Positions 25,627 to 34,636 of a stretch of 35,272 nucleotides of DNA are shown piece by piece. Position numbers and translations under genes: made by a program. The stretch covers positions 133,214 through 168,485 of the forward strand of contig NZ_VJXQ01000004.1 of NCBI RefSeq assembly GCF_007655485.1, in the 5' to 3' direction. Origin of the DNA: Halobellus captivus. Lineage in GTDB: Archaea; Halobacteriota; Halobacteria; Halobacteriales; Haloferacaceae. Below the pieces are notes generated by a model. The model worked only from the letters and a program-made list of their open reading frames with translations, had not been told where the DNA came from and made no database searches. Within the stretch, counting starts at the first letter, position 1, and each line of letters opens with the position of its first letter.

Positions 25627-26895
25627 TCAGAGACGGGGCTCGAAGACGGAGGCGAGTTCCTGACGTACGAGATCGCGCATCGCCTCCGCGCGGGCCTCTC
25701 GCCGGGTCCGTTCGTCGAGATAGTTTCGTTCGGAAACCGCGGCGTCGCTACTTCCCTGTGCTGCCGCGACAGCAGCGGTCCCCGCTTCTATCGAGGGTCG
25801 CTGTCGCCGGTATAGCCGGTACCACGTTCGTCGTCCCATCTTCGGTAACGGGTGGGAGCCGTCGATCTGGATGTTCGCCCGTCGACCGAGATCACGAAGC
25901 CACCGACGGGCAGTGGCCGTCGACATCGGGCGATCGACGGTCTGGCCCGGGAGGAGATAGCCGGTCCACCCCTCCCGTTCGGTGAGGTCACCGATGCGCC
26001 GTCGAGTGGCGTCGACACCGACCAAGATTTCCACCGTGTTACGCGTTCGTCGGGCGTTCTTCCGCTCGCCAGCCGCGAATTCGACGTACGGAACCGTACC
26101 GTCGTCAGGGTCGGGCGCTAACGTGAGCTGGTCGACGTGGAGCTCACAGGCCTCCACCGGTCGGAGCCCCCATCCGGCGAGTGCGAGCAGCAGAAACCGT
26201 TCGTCGGCGTCGGCTACGTCGAGTAGACCTTCGAGATCGGACTGAGACAGTGCCGGATGGTCGTACTTCGGATCCTCGTCCCAGCCGAACCGATTCAGCA
26301 GGTTCTCCGCGGGGTTGTAAATCCCTCGTCCCATCTCCACGACGAAGGTGTACCAGTTTCGCACCGCCGAGACGTACTTCTTTTTCGAGGCGAGTGTGCC
26401 GAGTTCGTCGTCGAGAACGCGAAAGGTGTCGCGAACGCGCGCGATCTCGTCCGGTCGCGTCGTCTCGTCGAGAAGTGGAGACAGCAAATCACTCGTTTCG
26501 TTGACGTCGCGATAGGTGGTTGCGTACGTCTTCAACCGTGATTTGCGGGGGTTGATCGTGGTCGCAGCGCGTCCGCGATCGCGTTCGAGTTCTTCCAGGT
26601 AGTCTTCGAGGGCACGAATCGTCGGCTCGTGGGAGATTCCCCATTCTCCTTCGCCATCGGTATCCGCGAGTGAGAGGTCGGCGACCTCGTAAAATTGGCT
26701 GGGCGACAGATCGTGATCTCGCCGCAGTCGTTCGACAAATCCCGAGTAATTCGACTTGAGCCACGCGTATGTGGGGGTTTCGATCGACGGATCGATATTC
26801 TGAGACGGGTCCTCACGGAGCCTCGGGACAATTTCGTCACGGTAAAACCGCGCAAAATCGGTCAAATCTTCGAATTGTGCGTATGAGTGCGTCAT
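25627..26895 (-). CDS. Tyrosine-type site-specific recombinase/integrase (422 aa)
   Basis: A lambda-integrase/XerC-like recombinase that cuts and rejoins DNA at specific sites. An N-terminal arm and core-binding domain (about 1-200, with ALEDYLEELERDRGRAATTI and KKKYVSAVRNWYTFVVEMGR) precedes the catalytic domain: Arg245 in GWGLRPVEACEL (catalytic Arg I), ERKNARRTRNTVEI with Lys279 as the likely hairpin Lys, LPKMGRRTWYRLY as the box II region, and Tyr392 in SERNYLDERT as the nucleophile. Box II is odd: the usual His-x-x-Arg reads Lys352-M-G-Arg355. Such variants are seen in haloarchaea but may lower activity. The long acidic N-terminus is archaeal. The gene has no adjacent tRNA or att repeat that I can find. 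It is divergent from the E1 alpha operon. Confidence 0.88.
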   Translation of the reverse strand: MTHSYAQFEDLTDFARFYRDEIVPRLREDPSQNIDPSIETPTYAWLKSNYSGFVERLRRDHDLSPSQFYEVADLSLADTDGEGEWGISHEPTIRALEDYLEELERDRGRAATTINPRKSRLKTYATTYRDVNETSDLLSPLLDETTRPDEIARVRDTFRVLDDELGTLASKKKYVSAVRNWYTFVVEMGRGIYNPAENLLNRFGWDEDPKYDHPALSQSDLEGLLDVADADERFLLLALAGWGLRPVEACELHVDQLTLAPDPDDGTVPYVEFAAGERKNARRTRNTVEILVGVDATRRRIGDLTEREGWTGYLLPGQTVDRPMSTATARRWLRDLGRRANIQIDGSHPLPKMGRRTWYRLYRRQRPSIEAGTAAVAAAQGSSDAAVSERNYLDERTRREARAEAMRDLVRQELASVFEPRL

Positions 26896-27206: not shown

Positions 27207-28268
27207 ATGTTGTCTGCAACGATGCCACACGCCAGCGAAAATACTCTCACGCGGTTGTACGAGAATATGGTGACGGCACGGTACTACGAAGAGCGGCTGC
27301 AGGAGGAGTATCTGGAGGGAAAGCAGCCCGCGTTCGACATTTCGGCGGGGCCGATTCCCGGTGAACTACATCTCGCTGCTGGTCACGAGGCCGCCGGTGC
27401 GGGCGTCTGCGACCACCTTCGCGACGACGACATCGTGACCGCGACGCATCGACCGCATCATATCGCAATCGCGAAAGGCGTCGATCTCAAGCGTATGACC
27501 GCCGAAATTTTCGGGCGCGAAACGGGCCTCGGAAAGGGAAAAGGCGGTCATATGCACCTCTTCGATCCGGATGTGAATTTCGCGTGTAGTGGCATCATCG
27601 CGGAGGGATGCCCACCGGCGGTCGGTGGTGCACTCGCCGCGCAGAAGCGGAATACGGACAGCGTAGCCGTCTCCTACCTCGGGGAGGGTGCGATCGACCA
27701 GGGCGCGTTTCTGGAATCGCTGAACTTCGCGTCAGTTTTCGATCTGCCTGTCGTCTTCGTCATCGAAGACAACGACTGGGCGATCAGTATGCCGAAAGAG
27801 CGCGTGACGGACGTCGAGAACGGAGCGAAACGAGCGGACGGGTTCGAGATGCCAGGGGTGCGGGTCGACAGCGACGACGTACTCGACGTGTACGACGCCG
27901 CCGGAGAAGCAATCGGACGCGCTCGCGATCGAAATGGGCCGACAGTCATCGAAGTACAGGTTCACCGGCGGATGGGACATTTTATGGGAGATCCCGAAAC
28001 GTACCGTCCCGAAGCGGATCAGGAGGCGGCCGCCGAGCGAGATTCCATCGTCCGACTGGAGTCGGACCTCCGCGAGGCGGGCGTCGAAGACGATCGGATC
28101 GACGAGATACGCGACGACGCCCATAGCCGCGTCGATGAAGCAATCGAGTGGGCGAAAGATCAGCCGCTCCCGGAACCGGGAGCCGCCCACGAAGATCTGT
28201 TCGTCAGTCCGGCGAGCGGCGTCACGGACAGCGAACCAGACTTCGAGGCCGTCGGGGGTGAAGAGTGA
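27207..28268 (+). CDS. 2-oxoacid dehydrogenase E1 component, alpha subunit (353 aa)
   Basis: Thiamine-diphosphate-dependent alpha subunit of an E1 decarboxylase (pyruvate, branched-chain or acetoin type) that hands the acyl group to a lipoyl arm. Seen: LYENMVTARYYEERLQEEYL, the opening helix of the family; HLAAGHEAAGAGVCDHL; THRPHHIAIAKGVDLKRM; GLGKGKGGHMHLFDPDVNF, the conserved loop; the TPP motif as YLGEGAIDQGAFLESLNFAS ending in VIEDNDWAIS (GEGA in place of GDGA); and HRRMGHFMGDPETYR. It resembles acetoin-type AcoA as much as pyruvate E1. The start is uncertain between ATG 27207 and ATG 27222, both close behind the TATA-like box. Its stop overlaps the E1 beta ATG. Confidence 0.93.
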   Translation: MLSATMPHASENTLTRLYENMVTARYYEERLQEEYLEGKQPAFDISAGPIPGELHLAAGHEAAGAGVCDHLRDDDIVTATHRPHHIAIAKGVDLKRMTAEIFGRETGLGKGKGGHMHLFDPDVNFACSGIIAEGCPPAVGGALAAQKRNTDSVAVSYLGEGAIDQGAFLESLNFASVFDLPVVFVIEDNDWAISMPKERVTDVENGAKRADGFEMPGVRVDSDDVLDVYDAAGEAIGRARDRNGPTVIEVQVHRRMGHFMGDPETYRPEADQEAAAERDSIVRLESDLREAGVEDDRIDEIRDDAHSRVDEAIEWAKDQPLPEPGAAHEDLFVSPASGVTDSEPDFEAVGGEE

Positions 28269-29281
28269 TGTCCGGAGCGGAATCGACTCGCGAACTGACG
28301 ATGAGCAGAGCGATGGTGTCGGCCATCGCCCACGAGATGCGCGAAAACGACGACGTGTTCTATATGGGTGAGGACGTCGCCGACTACGGCGGGATCTTCG
28401 ATTCGACGCAGGGCCTCCGCGAAGAGTTCGGCTACGACCGCATCATGGACGTACCCATCAGCGAAACAGCGTACATCGGTGCGGCAGTCGGGGCCGCACA
28501 GGCGGGAATGCGTCCGATCGCTGAGCTGATGTTTGTCGATTTCTTCGGCGTCGCGATGGATCAGATCTACAACCAGATGGCGAAGAACACCTACATGAGC
28601 GGGGGTAACGTCTCCGTTCCGATGGTTCTCACTGCAGCCGTCGGCGGAACGTACAACGACGCCGCCCAGCACTCGCAGACGCTGTACGGGACGTTCGCAC
28701 ACATCCCAGGGTTGAAGATAGTCGTCCCCTCGACAGCGTACGAGGCGAAGGGACTGATGCACAACGCGATTCGTGACGACGATCCCGTGTTGTACATGTT
28801 CCACAAACGGTTGATGGGAATCGGCTGGATGCCCGCTCCGGACGGACCGAAAACGCCTGTTCCGGAGACTGACTATACGATTCCGTTCGGACGGGCCGAC
28901 GTGAAACGCGACGGCGAGGACGTGACGATCGTCACGCTCGGCCTGCACGTCCATCGAGCACTGGAAGCCGCCGAAACGCTCGCTTCCGACGGGATCAGCG
29001 CCGAGGTAATCGATCTCAGGTCGCTCGTGCCACTCGACACCGAGACGATCGTCGAATCTGTCGAAAAAACGGGGAACCTCGTCGTCGTCGACGAGGATTA
29101 CCGCTCTTACGGCGTGACCGGAGAAGTTACCGCACGTGTCGCCGAGGAGGCGCTCGACGCGCTCGAACGCGTCGAGCGCGTCGCCGTGCCAGACGTGCCG
29201 ATCCCGTACTCGCGGCCGCTGGAGAAGGAGGTTATCCCCGGCACAGAAGACATCGTAAACGCTGCCACGCGGACACAGTGA
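28268..29281 (+). CDS. 2-oxoacid dehydrogenase E1 component, beta subunit (337 aa)
   Basis: Beta subunit that completes the E1 heterotetramer active site. Seen: LTMSRAMVSAIAHEMRENDD, VFYMGEDVADYGGIFDSTQG, then VPISETAYIGAAVGAAQAGM, all classic for AcoB/PdhB; the active-site Glu of this family falls in ISETAYIG. PGLKIVVPSTAYEAKGLMHN marks the middle, and the C-terminal transketolase domain contains DVTIVTLGLHVHRALEAAET and SAEVIDLRSLVPLDTETIVE. Length is normal. Its ATG at 28268 overlaps the alpha stop (TGATG); the preceding GTG at 28265 is a possible but less likely start. The lipoyl protein gene follows after four bases. Confidence 0.95.
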   Translation: MSGAESTRELTMSRAMVSAIAHEMRENDDVFYMGEDVADYGGIFDSTQGLREEFGYDRIMDVPISETAYIGAAVGAAQAGMRPIAELMFVDFFGVAMDQIYNQMAKNTYMSGGNVSVPMVLTAAVGGTYNDAAQHSQTLYGTFAHIPGLKIVVPSTAYEAKGLMHNAIRDDDPVLYMFHKRLMGIGWMPAPDGPKTPVPETDYTIPFGRADVKRDGEDVTIVTLGLHVHRALEAAETLASDGISAEVIDLRSLVPLDTETIVESVEKTGNLVVVDEDYRSYGVTGEVTARVAEEALDALERVERVAVPDVPIPYSRPLEKEVIPGTEDIVNAATRTQ

Positions 29282-29285
29282 GGAT

Positions 29286-29558
29286 ATGACCGAACACAAC
29301 GAACGCGTGGCGGTACAACTGGACGAGTGGCCAGACGACGTCGAGAGTGACGAGGGCGTCGTCGTCAATTGGTTCGTAAGCGAGGGAGCGACAATCACCG
29401 AATCTGAGAGCCTCTGTGAGGTACAGATCGAGAAAGTCAGTCTGGACGTGTACGCCCCCGCCAGCGGGACGCTAACCGAGATCCGCTGCGGAGAGGACGA
29501 CGAGTTCGAGCGCGGAGAGACGCTCGCGTGGGTCACGCCGACTCCGAGCGAGGACTGA
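29286..29558 (+). CDS. Stand-alone lipoyl-domain protein (90 aa)
   Basis: A free biotinyl/lipoyl-type domain that should carry the acyl group between E1 and E2. Seen: EGVVVNWFVSEGATITESES then LCEVQIEKVSLDVYAPASGT, the beta-sandwich of lipoyl domains with the modified Lys as K50 at the hairpin tip (IEKV; the usual form is DKA), then the return Gly-rich turn. The first 20 residues are an acidic leader. In most organisms this domain is the N-terminal part of E2; here it is its own protein, with the E2 catalytic domain encoded 11 bases downstream. No subunit-binding domain is present. Lipoate attachment is inferred from the family. Confidence 0.9.
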   Translation: MTEHNERVAVQLDEWPDDVESDEGVVVNWFVSEGATITESESLCEVQIEKVSLDVYAPASGTLTEIRCGEDDEFERGETLAWVTPTPSED

Positions 29559-29569
29559 ATATCATAGAG

Positions 29570-30277
29570 ATGAGTGAAGAATCCGCAGCGGAGAGAACCG
29601 TTCTGGAGGAGCGGACCTTGACGCCGATGCGAAAGACGATCGCGCGTCGTCTCGGAGAGAGCTACCGGGAAGCGGTCCACGTGACCGTGAACAGGACCGT
29701 AGACGCCGAACCACTACGTGCCGCAACGGACGCGGCAGCAGCGGACGAAACCGGGAGCACTCCGTCGGTGACAGACGTGATACTGTGCGCGCTATCGGAG
29801 ACGTTAGCATCGCATCCGTCGTTCAACGCGACGTACGAAGACGAGACGCACAGACTCTACGACGAGCAGAACGTAGGGATCGCAGTTTCGATCGATGACG
29901 GGCTGGTGACGCCTGTACTCTCGGATCTGGCGTCGAAATCGCTGATAGAAGTCACAACCGCGCGCAGAAGACTGACCGAACGGGTCCAGTCCGGGGACTA
30001 CACGATGGGTCTGTTCCGAAACGGGACGTTCACGCTGTCGAATCTCGGGCCGCTCGGCGTGGACTCGTTCGACCCGATCATCAATCCGCCGGAGGTCGCG
30101 ATCCTCGGTCTCGGACGGATGACCGGTCGAGCCGTCGAATCCGAGGGGGCTGTCGAGGTCCGCCAACACCTGACGCTGAGTCTGAGTATCGATCACCGAA
30201 TTCTCGACGGGGCCGACGCCGCGCGGTTTCTGGAAACCCTCGCAAACAACGTTGAAACCGCAGAGAAGTACGGGTGA
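29570..30277 (+). CDS. 2-oxoacid dehydrogenase E2 catalytic (acyltransferase) domain, stand-alone (235 aa)
   Basis: Chloramphenicol-acetyltransferase-like catalytic domain of E2, which moves the acyl group from lipoamide to CoA. Seen: LTPMRKTIARRLGESYREAV, HVTVNRTVDAEPLRAATDAA, LPSFNA-like HPSFNATYED, VGIAVSIDDGLVTPVLSDLA, FTLSNLGPLGVDSFDPIINP, PPEVAILGLGR, and the active site SIDHRILDGADAA with His209 and Asp213. It lacks the N-terminal lipoyl and peripheral-subunit-binding domains usually joined to it: the frame starts at the catalytic domain's own first motif. The lipoyl part is the preceding gene. Core assembly and E3 docking must therefore differ, or use other subunits. No E3 gene is in the window. 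Confidence 0.93.
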   Translation: MSEESAAERTVLEERTLTPMRKTIARRLGESYREAVHVTVNRTVDAEPLRAATDAAAADETGSTPSVTDVILCALSETLASHPSFNATYEDETHRLYDEQNVGIAVSIDDGLVTPVLSDLASKSLIEVTTARRRLTERVQSGDYTMGLFRNGTFTLSNLGPLGVDSFDPIINPPEVAILGLGRMTGRAVESEGAVEVRQHLTLSLSIDHRILDGADAARFLETLANNVETAEKYG

Positions 30278-30345
30278 GGTAAAATCGACTAATCCGCTAC
30301 ACGGGTTATTGAACGGCCGTACGTGACTGATCTAATGAATGCGAA

Positions 30346-30353
30346 AAATTATC
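30346..30353 (+). promoter_or_regulatory. Possible TATA-like box of the acyl-CoA synthetase gene
   Basis: AAATTATC is about 35 bases before the ATG at 30385. With 107 bases after E2, the synthetase may have its own promoter besides read-through. Confidence 0.35.
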
Positions 30354-30384
30354 ACAATATCCGCAGAGACACCTATTAAGAAAG

Positions 30385-32409
30385 ATGACAGATCGACCAA
30401 CCGCTCCGTATCCGGTCGTTCACGAACCGAGTCGAAAGTGGATCGAATCGACCAACGTCTGGGAGTTTATGCAGACGTATGATATCGGCGACCACGAAGA
30501 GCTGATCGCGCGAACGACCGGAGACGGCGGAAACGAGGGACCGGCGGGCCTCGAATGGTTCTGGGACGAACTCGTCGAGTATTTGGATATCGAATTTTTC
30601 ACGCCGTACGACCAGGTGTGCGACGACACCGACGGCCCGCAGTTCACGGACTGGTATCCCGGTGGACGGCTCAACATCGCGCACAACGTCCTTGACAGGC
30701 ACGCGACCGTCGACAGTACTCACCGCGAGGAGAGCGCGGTGATCTGGGAGGGTGAACCAGGCGACGTCCGGGAGGTATCCTTCGGTGACCTCCACGCGCA
30801 GGCGAACCGGGTCGCCAACTACCTCGAATCGACCGGGGTCGACGTCGGCGACACCGTCGGACTGTATATGCCGATGGTCCCGGAAGTCGCCGCCATCCTC
30901 TACGGCTGTTTCAAGGTGGGCGCAATCGCCGTCCCGATCTTCTCCGGGTTCGGGGTCGACGCGACGGCGACGCGGATCGACGACAGCGAGTGTACCGTGC
31001 TGTTCACCGGCGACGGGTTCTACCGACGGGGGAGCGAGATCGAACTCAAAGGGACCGCCGACAGCGCGATCGAGGCGGCGGGCCACGTCGAGCACGTCGT
31101 CGTCTACGATCGACTCGGATCGCGTGACGGAGGCGGAGGCGCAGACATCCCGTGGCAGGGCGACCGCGACGCCTGGTGGGACGACGCCATCGGCACGGCG
31201 GACGATAGCTACGAGTCGGCGTCGTTGCCGTCGAACCAGGAATCAATGCTGCTGTACTCCTCGGGGACGACCGGGGAGCCGAAGGGGATCGTGCACACGC
31301 ACGCTGGCGGCCTGCTCCAGCCAGCCAAGGAGATCCACTTCGGGTTCGATCAGCGGCCCGGCGATCGCTTCTTCTGGGTGAGCGATATCGGCTGGATGAT
31401 GGGTCCGTGGACGCTCATCGGCAATCACGCGTTCGGGGGGACGGTGTTTATGTACGAGGGCGCACCGGACCACCCCGAACCGGATCGCCTCTGGGAGATG
31501 ATCGACCGTCACGACCTCACGCAGTTCGGAATCTCCCCCACCGCGATCAGAGCGCTGCGCGGGCACGGTGACGACTGGGTCGAGTCGCACGACCTCTCGA
31601 GTCTCCGCCTGCTCGGTTCGACCGGAGAACCCTGGGATCGAGAGTCGTGGGAGTGGTTCTACGAGAAAGTCGGCGGCGGTGAGCGCCCTATTATGAATAT
31701 CTCCGGAGGCACGGAGATCATCGGCTGCTTCCTGATGCCGACGCCCATCCAACCACTGAAGCCCTGTTCGCTGGGCGGCCCCGGTCTCGGGATGGACATC
31801 GATATCATCGACGCAGAGGGGAACAGCGTCGCCGAATCAAACGAGCGCGGATTCCTCGTGGCCCGTCGGTCCTGCCCCTCGATGACGAAGAGCCTCTGGA
31901 GCGGTGACGAACGATATCTCGCGGAGTACTGGTCGACGTGGGACGATCTCTGGGACCACGGCGACTGGGCGCAACAGGACGAAGAGGGGTTCTGGTTCCT
32001 CCACGGACGTGCGGACGACGCCCTCAACGTGGCCGGTCGGAAGGTCGGCCCGGCCGAGATAGAGGGCGTTCTCGCGGAGCACGAGGCGGTCACGCAGGCG
32101 GCGGTCGTCGGCGTTCCCGACGACACGACCGGGACGGCCGTGATCGCGTTCGTGATCCCCGACTCGGAGTACGAACCGACAGACGCGCTCGCGGAGAGGC
32201 TACGGACTCTCGTCGGTCGACAACAGGGGAAGCCGTTCCGTCCCCGGGAGATCTATTTTGTCGATGACCTCCCGCGGACGCAGTCGGGGAAGATCATCCG
32301 ACGCGCCGTCAGAGCGGTGGCACAGCGCGATGAGCCAGGCGATCTCTCCTCGATGGAGAACCCGGCGGCACTCCGGGACCTCCGCGAGCGACTCGCCGAA
32401 GACGTGTAG
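30385..32409 (+). CDS. AMP-forming acyl-CoA synthetase, acetyl-CoA synthetase-like (674 aa)
   Basis: Activates an organic acid to its CoA ester via an acyl-AMP. Seen: an ACAS-type N-terminal part with WYPGGRLNIAHNVLDRHA; the ATP-binding P-loop-like YSSGTTGEPKGIVHTH near residues 289-304; GSTGEPWDRESWEWFY; NISGGTEIIG near 438-447; the hinge region WFLHGRADDALNVAGRKVGP; and the C-terminal catalytic Lys in RTQSGKIIRR near 635. Acetate-specific Acs enzymes carry a Trp where this protein has GGTE (DTWWQTE versus NISGGTE), so the acyl pocket is probably larger and the substrate a bigger acid. It lies 107 bases after E2 and probably supports the same pathway. It is convergent with the second E1 pair. 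Confidence 0.93.
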   Translation: MTDRPTAPYPVVHEPSRKWIESTNVWEFMQTYDIGDHEELIARTTGDGGNEGPAGLEWFWDELVEYLDIEFFTPYDQVCDDTDGPQFTDWYPGGRLNIAHNVLDRHATVDSTHREESAVIWEGEPGDVREVSFGDLHAQANRVANYLESTGVDVGDTVGLYMPMVPEVAAILYGCFKVGAIAVPIFSGFGVDATATRIDDSECTVLFTGDGFYRRGSEIELKGTADSAIEAAGHVEHVVVYDRLGSRDGGGGADIPWQGDRDAWWDDAIGTADDSYESASLPSNQESMLLYSSGTTGEPKGIVHTHAGGLLQPAKEIHFGFDQRPGDRFFWVSDIGWMMGPWTLIGNHAFGGTVFMYEGAPDHPEPDRLWEMIDRHDLTQFGISPTAIRALRGHGDDWVESHDLSSLRLLGSTGEPWDRESWEWFYEKVGGGERPIMNISGGTEIIGCFLMPTPIQPLKPCSLGGPGLGMDIDIIDAEGNSVAESNERGFLVARRSCPSMTKSLWSGDERYLAEYWSTWDDLWDHGDWAQQDEEGFWFLHGRADDALNVAGRKVGPAEIEGVLAEHEAVTQAAVVGVPDDTTGTAVIAFVIPDSEYEPTDALAERLRTLVGRQQGKPFRPREIYFVDDLPRTQSGKIIRRAVRAVAQRDEPGDLSSMENPAALRDLRERLAEDV

Positions 32410-32518: not shown

Positions 32519-33481
32519 TTATTCGACGACGTGCTCGATCGCTTCGGCGATCCGCGGCGGGTGTGGGATGTAGTAATCCTCCATCGACAGGAGCGGCACC
32601 GGAATGTCGAACCCGGTGACGCGCTCGATCGGAGCCTCGAGGTACATCAGCACCTCGTCGTTGATCGTCGCGATGATCTCGCTCGCCCAGCCACCGGAGC
32701 GAGGCGCTTCGTGGACGACGACCGCCCGGCCGGTCTTTTTCACCGACTGGACGATCGTGTCGCGGTCCATCGGCGAGATCGTCCGGAGATCGATCACCTC
32801 GGCGTCGACGTCGACCTTCGAGACCGCCTCGAGCGTCTGCTGCATCATCGCACCCCACGAGATCACGGTGACATCTTCTCCCTCCCGGCGGATCGCGGCT
32901 TCGCCGATCGGAACCTCGTAATCGTCTTCGGGGACGTCCTCGCGGATCGACCGGTAGACGTGTTTGGGTTCCATAAACAGGACCGGATCGGGGTCACGAA
33001 TCGACGCTTTGAGCAGCCCCTTCGTGTCGTATGGGGTACTCGGGATCACCACTTTGAGGCCGGGAATGTGCGCGTACGCGCCCTCCAGACTCTCGGAGTG
33101 GTGTTCGAGAGCACGAATCCCAGCCCCGTACGGCGTCCGAACCACGAGCGGGGCGCTCCACTCCCCGCGCGTTCGCCACCGCATCCGACTGGCGTGGGTC
33201 ACGAGCTGGTCGAACGCCGGGGGGAGGAAGCCGGAGAACTGAATCTCCGCGACCGGACGCAGTCCGAACACCGCTAACCCGACGGCCCCGCCCGCGATGG
33301 CGATCTCCGAAAGTGGGGTGTCGACCACGCGAGTCCCACCGAACCGATCTTTCAATCCCTCAGTCGCCCTGAAGACGCCACCGGTCTCGGCGACGTCCTC
33401 GCCGAAGACGACGACCCGTTCGTCTCGCTCCATCTCCTCAGCCAGCGCCATATTGATGGCGTTGATGATAGTTTCAGGCAT
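32519..33481 (-). CDS. Second 2-oxoacid dehydrogenase E1 beta subunit (320 aa)
   Basis: Beta subunit of a separate E1. Seen: INAINMALAEEMERDERVVV and FGEDVAETGGVFRATEGLKD, a textbook PdhB/BkdB opening; VDTPLSEIAIAGGAVGLAVF, with the active-site Glu; RALEHHSESLEGAYAHIPGL; VVIPSTPYDTKGLLKASIRD; AEVIDLRTISPMDRDTIVQS; and HEAPRSGGWASEIIA. This set is closer to the common branched-chain/pyruvate type than is the plus-strand copy: compare PLSEIAIAG here with PISETAYIG there. The start at 33481 lies 6 bases after the alpha stop at 33488, so they are co-translated. No E2, lipoyl or E3 gene follows: the operon ends here against the synthetase. Confidence 0.95.
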   Translation of the reverse strand: MPETIINAINMALAEEMERDERVVVFGEDVAETGGVFRATEGLKDRFGGTRVVDTPLSEIAIAGGAVGLAVFGLRPVAEIQFSGFLPPAFDQLVTHASRMRWRTRGEWSAPLVVRTPYGAGIRALEHHSESLEGAYAHIPGLKVVIPSTPYDTKGLLKASIRDPDPVLFMEPKHVYRSIREDVPEDDYEVPIGEAAIRREGEDVTVISWGAMMQQTLEAVSKVDVDAEVIDLRTISPMDRDTIVQSVKKTGRAVVVHEAPRSGGWASEIIATINDEVLMYLEAPIERVTGFDIPVPLLSMEDYYIPHPPRIAEAIEHVVE

Positions 33482-33487
33482 AGATAC

Positions 33488-34636
33488 TCACCCCTTTGGT
33501 CGCCGCACAATATACTCCTCTAACTCGTCCAGTTCGCGGAGACTGCGTTCGAGTTCGGCCAGTTGCTCTTCGAGGGCGGGCGGCATCTCCTCGTAGAGGT
33601 ATTTGAACATCTCGTCGATGTCTCGCGGGCCGTAGTCGTTCGCCGCCTCGATCGCCGCGTCGAACTCCTCGTCCACCTCGGCGACCATCGCCTCTTTGTC
33701 GACTTCATCCCACAGACCCTCGGATTTGAGGAACGTCTCGTAGCGCTCGATCGGGTCTCTGTCCAGCCACGGCTCGACCTCGTCGCGGTCGCGGTACTGC
33801 GTTGGGTCGTCGCTGGTTGAATGCCCCTCCCGGCGATAGGTGAGCCCCTCGAAGACAACCGGATTCCCCTGCCGAGCGAGTTCTCGCGCCTCGCTCATCG
33901 CGTGGTACGTCGCGAGAACGTCGTTGCCGTCGACGCGAATGCCGTGCACGCCGTAGCCGACTGCGCGCTGAGCGATCGAGTTCGCGTTCGTCTGTTTCTC
34001 GAACGGCGTCGAGATCGCCCACTGGTTGTTCTGACAGTAGAAGATGGTGGGCGCGTCGAGGACACCGGCGAAGTTAACCGCCTCGTGGAACGCACCGGTA
34101 CTCGTCGCGCCGTCACCGAAGTGGGCGGTAACGACGGCGTCGGTGTCGGTGATGTTCATTCCCCAGCCGATGCCGGTGACCACCGGCAAGTAGCCGCCGA
34201 CGGAGATGCCGATCATACAGTTACGCTGGGCGAGATATTTCTGTGCGTCGTCGATGCCGCGCCAGAAGAGCAGAATATCGCGCAGCGAGACGCCTTTCAT
34301 CAGCATCGCGCTCGTCTCACGGCCCATCGCGAGCAGGTAGTCCTCGTCCTTGAGCGCGTACCCGCTGCCGACGATACTCGCCTCGTGCCCGCGACTCGAT
34401 CCGACGGTTCCCATCTCGCCCCGTCGCTGGAGGTTGATCATCCGCTCTGCGTATCGCTTCTCGACGAGCATCCACCGGTAGAGGTCCACGAACTCCCTCG
34501 TATCGAGATCGGGGACGTCTTCGGAGTCATATTCGCCATTCTCATCTATTATCTGATATTTCGTGACAGGAAGATCGTCCTGTGTTATCCACGGGGCGTC
34601 CAGTTCGTCAGCCCCCTCTGAAGTGTTTTTAGTCAT
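33488..34636 (-). CDS. Second 2-oxoacid dehydrogenase E1 alpha subunit (382 aa)
   Basis: Alpha subunit of the second E1. Seen: FVDLYRWMLVEKRYAERMIN, LQRRGEMGTVGSSRGHEASI, ILLFWRGIDDAQKYLAQRNC, the TPP motif HFGDGATSTGAFHEAVNFAG ending QNNQWAISTPFEKQ, and YRREGHSTSDDPTQYR with phosphorylation-loop-like Ser/Thr in the place found in pyruvate and branched-chain E1 alpha. Its longer N-terminus (WITQDDLPVTKYQIIDENGE) is typical of branched-chain-type E1 alpha. The start at 34636 is preferred because the open frame above it is not acidic. TATA-like DNA (TTTATTAT on the minus strand, 34673-34681) is about 41 bases upstream. Divergent from the second amidohydrolase gene. Confidence 0.95.
   Translation of the reverse strand: MTKNTSEGADELDAPWITQDDLPVTKYQIIDENGEYDSEDVPDLDTREFVDLYRWMLVEKRYAERMINLQRRGEMGTVGSSRGHEASIVGSGYALKDEDYLLAMGRETSAMLMKGVSLRDILLFWRGIDDAQKYLAQRNCMIGISVGGYLPVVTGIGWGMNITDTDAVVTAHFGDGATSTGAFHEAVNFAGVLDAPTIFYCQNNQWAISTPFEKQTNANSIAQRAVGYGVHGIRVDGNDVLATYHAMSEARELARQGNPVVFEGLTYRREGHSTSDDPTQYRDRDEVEPWLDRDPIERYETFLKSEGLWDEVDKEAMVAEVDEEFDAAIEAANDYGPRDIDEMFKYLYEEMPPALEEQLAELERSLRELDELEEYIVRRPKG

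Follow-up and report, generated by a model that had tools for sequence, protein, structure and literature searches.

Substrate channelling in the 2-oxoacid dehydrogenases is, in the textbook account, the work of a swinging lipoyl arm tethered to the acyltransferase, E2. The canonical pyruvate and branched-chain complexes are built of a thiamine-diphosphate-dependent dehydrogenase (E1, α2β2), an E2 core of 24 or 60 chains and a dihydrolipoyl dehydrogenase (E3). Their lipoyl domains are described as covalently joined to E2 (PMC10415282). The E2 catalytic domain of actinobacterial OdhA/KGD, which is trimeric, fused to E1 and without a lipoyl domain of its own, is served in trans by the lipoyl group of the E2 protein AceF (PMC10415282), and single-domain lipoyl carriers are represented by the H protein of glycine cleavage, with glycine decarboxylase as partner, and by LbpA of Hdr-like sulfur oxidation, with Hdr (PMC6067878). 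Here we describe a cassette from the haloarchaeon Halobellus captivus (the window: 35,272 nucleotides of contig NZ_VJXQ01000004.1, positions 133,214 to 168,485) in which genes for E1α and E1β are followed by separate genes for a free lipoyl protein and a free E2 catalytic domain. It represents a genuine variant of a known enzyme class, conserved and shared by two domains of life: the separate lipoyl arm recurs in other archaea and in bacteria, and hence the one-piece arm of the textbooks is not the sole design.

Reading frames and Pfam matches bore out the gene order of the original prediction, which was made from the letters of the window and runs E1α, E1β, free lipoyl protein, free E2 and acyl-CoA (coenzyme A) synthetase (Table). 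The first four genes are separated by -1, 4 and 11 bases, the E1β ATG overlapping the stop codon of E1α, and 107 bases precede the acyl-CoA synthetase gene; the free E2 starts at the ATG at 29570 and not at the GTG upstream at 29528. Lipoyl and E2 catalytic domains are thus separate genes with start and stop codons of their own, and their conservation as two genes in 33 genomes, within a cassette kept in dozens, excludes a chance arrangement as well as the frameshift or sequencing error in a single E2 gene that had been considered at the outset. Biotin_lipoyl is the sole Pfam match of the 90-residue protein and 2-oxoacid_dh that of the 235-residue E2 piece, which has no lipoyl domain of its own. 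As predicted, neither piece matches E3_binding, the peripheral subunit-binding domain that fused haloarchaeal E2s, by contrast, do match in the same scan. The predicted active-site residues also stand at their positions: Lys50 aligns with lysine in all 87 free lipoyl proteins, and the His209 and Asp213 columns are invariant in the E2 alignment, where only about 16 residues lie ahead of the core. In AlphaFold2 models, the lipoyl protein (predicted local distance difference test, pLDDT, 87) folds as a barrel of the lipoyl type, places Lys50 at the turn of a β-hairpin and finds E2 lipoyl domains among its top fold matches, and the free E2 (pLDDT 84) superposes on solved E2 cores with template modelling scores of about 0.8-0.87.

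Compared with the canonical complexes, the cassette shares the E1 families, the lipoyl fold and the lysine position, and its E2 shares the catalytic fold, the DHRxxDG motif and the expected chemistry; it differs in having separate lipoyl and catalytic proteins, no subunit-binding domain and an E3 encoded outside the operon. It resembles OdhA/KGD with AceF in that the E2 catalytic domain has no lipoyl domain of its own, but lipoyl, E1 and E2 units are all separate here, instead of a catalytic domain fused to E1 and a lipoyl domain on another E2. The H protein and LbpA are similar in being single-domain carriers, and also in that a single-domain lipoate ligase gene adjoins the lipoyl gene in bacterial cassettes (see below), but the partner here is an E1α/E1β pair; in profile searches at E 0.001 the lipoyl protein matched Biotin_lipoyl only and not GCV_H.

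The prediction that no E3 is present holds for the operon and its surroundings but not for the genome. A true lipoamide dehydrogenase (C1:23808-25190; 529 bits against a cut-off of 409) lies within a canonical E1α-E1β-E2-E3 operon on contig C1 (C1:19910-25190) and is therefore available in trans. That operon also holds an E2 with a lipoyl domain and two binding domains (two stretches resembling subunit-binding domains in the canonical E2 at L097 7029-8714), and one of the three E1α genes of the genome, the remaining two being that of the cassette and that of a minus-strand pair in the window. Two genes of lipoate-attachment type, one like the large subunit of lipoate-protein ligase and one like octanoyl/lipoyl-GcvH transferases, lie away from the cassette; LplA-, LipB- and LipM-type lipoylation systems have been reported in a survey of archaeal genomes (PMC3904984).

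A separate lipoyl carrier is, judging from sequence, the best reading of the conserved split, and we put at roughly 0.65 the probability that the cassette encodes a four-protein system of the 2-oxoacid dehydrogenase type working on a discrete carrier that diffuses between E1, E2 and a shared E3. E1 (α2β2) would decarboxylate or cleave a keto substrate, either a 2-oxoacid or an α-hydroxyketone, on thiamine diphosphate and reductively acylate the lipoyl group that the free carrier bears on Lys50. The acylated carrier would then diffuse to the free E2 protein, which would move the acyl group to CoA, and the dihydrolipoyl carrier would be reoxidised by the dihydrolipoyl dehydrogenase of the canonical operon. 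Lipoate would be put on the carrier in trans by one of the two ligase- or octanoyltransferase-like proteins. The free E2 is probably a simple trimer. A C-terminal knob (Pro-x-hydrophobic pair) of the kind that joins trimers in the large canonical cores is found in 19 of 21 fused E2s versus 1 of 42 split E2s from both domains of life, on a pattern that was defined after inspecting the tails and that concerns sequence only, and the actinobacterial proteins AceF and OdhA carry a change at the same C-terminal end that prevents trimer-trimer contact (PMC10415282). Given this precedent, absence of the knob leads us to expect for the cassette, as in OdhA, a trimeric E2 fed with lipoyl groups in trans, here by a mobile carrier. 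If so, an untethered lineage present in archaea and bacteria would provide a natural test of the tether's importance, and the system, small and soluble, would let each step be assayed on its own, its haloarchaeal substrate being still to be assigned.

In a survey of 392 genomes of the haloarchaeal order, with the free lipoyl protein called at E <= 1e-16, about 124 encode this protein in the order E1α-E1β-free lipoyl, and a score gap sets it apart from the lipoyl domains of ordinary E2s. Identities to the window proteins are 71-84% for E1α and about 74-92% for E1β of these cassettes. The catalytic-only E2 is also present in 33 of the 124 (the window and 32 others) and adjoins the lipoyl gene in the loci read; the full cassette occurs, for example, in Halobellus rufus, Haloarcula pellucida, Halomicroarcula rubra, Saliphagus infecundisoli, Natrinema gelatinilyticum and Halobaculum magnesiiphilum. 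Among 40 fetched loci without an intact split E2, the order E1α-E1β-lipoyl is preserved in nearly all, the exceptions being one with broken E1 genes and one ended by a contig edge, and 39 bear no trace of the split E2. It is frameshifted in the remaining one (L135 7331-8252) and interrupted by a stop in another locus (L084 6856-7758), with E1 and lipoyl genes intact. What stays constant in the system is therefore the free lipoyl protein more than the free E2. No conserved neighbour besides the cassette genes, sought as a clue to the substrate, was found across 75 loci.

The split extends beyond the haloarchaea. A four-gene cassette of identical content and order is found on plasmids of Rhodococcus opacus and of six alphaproteobacteria (Mameliella, Paracoccus seriniphilus, Phaeobacter inhibens, Sphingomonas paeninsulae, Roseibium and Gemmobacter), with a free lipoyl protein of about 77 residues. 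Their E1s are the nearest bacterial ones found, at about 50% identity (50-52% for E1α to that of the window). A lipoate-ligase-like gene lies directly 3' of E2 in five of these seven cassettes and a lipoyl synthase gene in or near the cluster in two, and four more alphaproteobacterial genomes have E1α-E1β-lipoyl-ligase without E2. Distribution is patchy in bacteria, given recovery at a strict threshold in 4 of 385 Alphaproteobacteria (the class of genome G393). In the GTDB phylum of an actinobacterial metagenome-assembled genome (G392), all 11 lipoyl matches lay within long open frames, and hence no split was seen there; a lipoyl match on pSCL4 of Streptomyces clavuligerus had neither E1 nor E2 nearby.

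In a tree of E1α plus E1β, all sampled cassette E1s group together, whichever the domain of life and whether or not an E2 accompanies them (Shimodaira-Hasegawa-like approximate likelihood ratio test, 100), apart from the E1s that accompany fused E2s, and the E1β tree agrees on this clade (99/99). The E2s behave otherwise: those split in haloarchaea form one group (98) nested among fused haloarchaeal E2s, the alphaproteobacterial ones branch elsewhere and that of R. opacus elsewhere again, and a single clade of all catalytic-only E2s, as a single origin would require, was rejected (approximately unbiased test, p 1.7e-6). With E1s of one clade and catalytic-only E2s of several origins, an older unit of E1 plus free carrier probably gained such an E2 more than once. 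For the haloarchaeal split E2, gene fission is favoured but not proven, since a clade of fused haloarchaeal E2s was not rejected (p 0.20). At a little under even odds, we extend the reading to an old cross-domain class with a diffusible lipoyl carrier, its bacterial versions having their own lipoate ligase, and with a modular E2 step that may be absent, borrowed, or provided by catalytic-only trimers recruited independently at least twice.

Several findings weigh against a free carrier serving its own E2: no E3 is genetically linked to the cassette, the free E2s of bacteria and of haloarchaea are not orthologous, the knob comparison was drawn post hoc as stated, and 91 carrier genomes are without a split E2 at the thresholds used, 42 of them also without a close fused E2, so that the E2 step does not always come from a recognisable cognate partner. 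Free diffusion would not apply if the lipoyl protein and E1 docked onto an E2 core by direct contacts, without linkers or a subunit-binding domain. Such a non-covalent assembly accords with tightly packed, co-linear genes, which are consistent with a fixed stoichiometry, and with OdhA, where the catalytic domains of E1 and E2 stay joined although a subunit-binding domain is lacking (PMC10415282). We nevertheless consider it improbable, because haloarchaeal cassettes without the split E2, like four bacterial ones, keep E1 and free lipoyl protein with no adjoining E2, the lipoyl protein thus not being obligately tied to a cognate core, and because the short segment ahead of the E2 core leaves little space for docking. 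Rather unlikely, if less so, is that the free lipoyl protein mainly serves the E2 cores of other complexes, the adjoining E2 being dispensable and both E2 and E3 borrowed, which is partly compatible with a free carrier. The closest relative of the split E2, at about 55-61% identity, is a fused haloarchaeal E2 (type Y) that differs from it in having a lipoyl domain, usually E3-binding domains, in at least one case a C-terminal OsmC domain, and E1s of another lineage. This fused E2 occurs in 49 of the 91 carrier-only genomes versus 34 of the 268 genomes without the lipoyl protein (odds ratio 7.5, p 4e-12, stratified by family and thus corrected for kinship to that level only), as expected if it can be borrowed, and the interrupted split E2s of L084 and L135 also fit. 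Against borrowing, the catalytic gene stands beside the carrier, nearly always intact, in the window and the 32 other genomes, and 42 carrier-only genomes have no such fused E2 to borrow from.

That the operon is decaying or recently broken, with the split E2 a non-working remnant of an ordinary fused one, is hardly credible. The nesting of haloarchaeal split E2s among fused ones is consistent with gene fission, but their catalytic residues are all conserved, about 30 genomes keep both frames (lipoyl and E2) unbroken, at 55-76% identity, and the E1s of split cassettes are of a different lineage from those beside fused E2s, hence the split genes are not the fragments of one operon that broke. 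A further alternative concerns the substrate and is independent of the architecture, namely that the enzyme is an acetoin (α-hydroxyketone) dehydrogenase rather than a 2-oxoacid dehydrogenase; this is a serious possibility, against which we lean only somewhat. In Haloferax volcanii, the E1s encoded by oadhAB2 (HVO_2595/2596) and oadhAB3 (HVO_0669/0668) are related to acetoin dehydrogenase, being 40-54% identical to Bacillus subtilis AcoAB, and their substrates have not been identified, pyruvate and 2-oxoglutarate having been excluded and no 2-oxoacid substrate found (PMC8305020). By its published 40-41% identity to AcoA, oadhAB2 could be an orthologue of the cassette E1. A sigma-54-interacting regulator gene near one bacterial cassette also points to acetoin, and the NCBIfam acetoin E2 model is second best for the lipoyl protein, but this score comes from the lipoyl domain alone and is far under the model cut-off, neighbours vary widely, and the cassettes read showed no acetoin gene alongside.

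As to novelty, no description of the free-lipoyl-carrier architecture or of a cross-domain family was found in the literature searched, outside which lay the primary Haloferax papers of 2002 and 2007. A free lipoyl gene in H. volcanii may have been noted at least in part in those papers. Related H. volcanii operons have been published, and RefSeq already annotates both pieces generically in plasmid records and labels them 'lipoyl domain-containing protein' and '2-oxo acid dehydrogenase subunit E2' in Halobaculum magnesiiphilum.

Table. Coordinates of the cassette and its neighbours in the H. captivus window, with supporting domain matches.
Feature	Position	Strand	Evidence
Tyrosine-recombinase/integrase-like gene	25627-26895	-	Pfam Phage_integrase, under cut-off
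E1α (thiamine-diphosphate dehydrogenase alpha subunit), 353 aa, free-lipoyl-carrier subfamily	27207..28268	+	Pfam E1_dh 5e-67
E1β, 337 aa	28268..29281	+	Transket_pyr 2.7e-38, Transketolase_C 1.3e-37
Free lipoyl carrier protein (putative), 90 aa, predicted lipoylated Lys50	29286..29558	+	Biotin_lipoyl 1.6e-13
Free E2 acyltransferase catalytic domain, 235 aa, DHRxxDG motif (His209, Asp213)	29570..30277	+	2-oxoacid_dh 6.9e-62
AMP-forming acyl-CoA synthetase, acetate-CoA-ligase-like	30385..32409	+	Pfam AMP-binding 1.9e-66; under NCBIfam cut-offs
Second E1β/E1α pair	32519-34636	-	

The acyl-CoA synthetase gene, counted as an operon member in the original prediction, does lie directly downstream, but this linkage is not kept in other genomes: homologues of ~26% identity are near some cassettes only and none is beside the closest relatives. 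It therefore adjoins the cassette but probably does not belong to the unit. The integrase-like gene directly upstream may be related to the patchy distribution of the cassette. No E2 or E3 gene lies beside the second E1β/E1α pair in the window, a pair that the original prediction leaves unmentioned, and its E1β is 76% identical to that of the genome's canonical operon.

Other arrangements were met among the loci read. On a Shinella plasmid (L205 1-9621), a sugar operon with GlpD, a class II aldolase and an ABC transporter includes genes for a free lipoyl protein and for an E2 catalytic domain, likewise free; its E1 falls outside the cassette clade in the E1β tree, and this is probably a separate instance of the split. 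On a Clostridioides difficile plasmid (L206 4108-7060), the lipoyl domain is at the N-terminus of dihydrolipoyl dehydrogenase and none was found on E2, another route by which the arm comes off E2. OsmC/Ohr proteins can draw reducing power from lipoyl groups, and in L090 (6550-8427, minus strand) and similar fused haloarchaeal E2s, a lipoyl domain, two E3-binding stretches and the catalytic domain are followed by a C-terminal OsmC domain, a fusion that may couple E2 to peroxide reduction.

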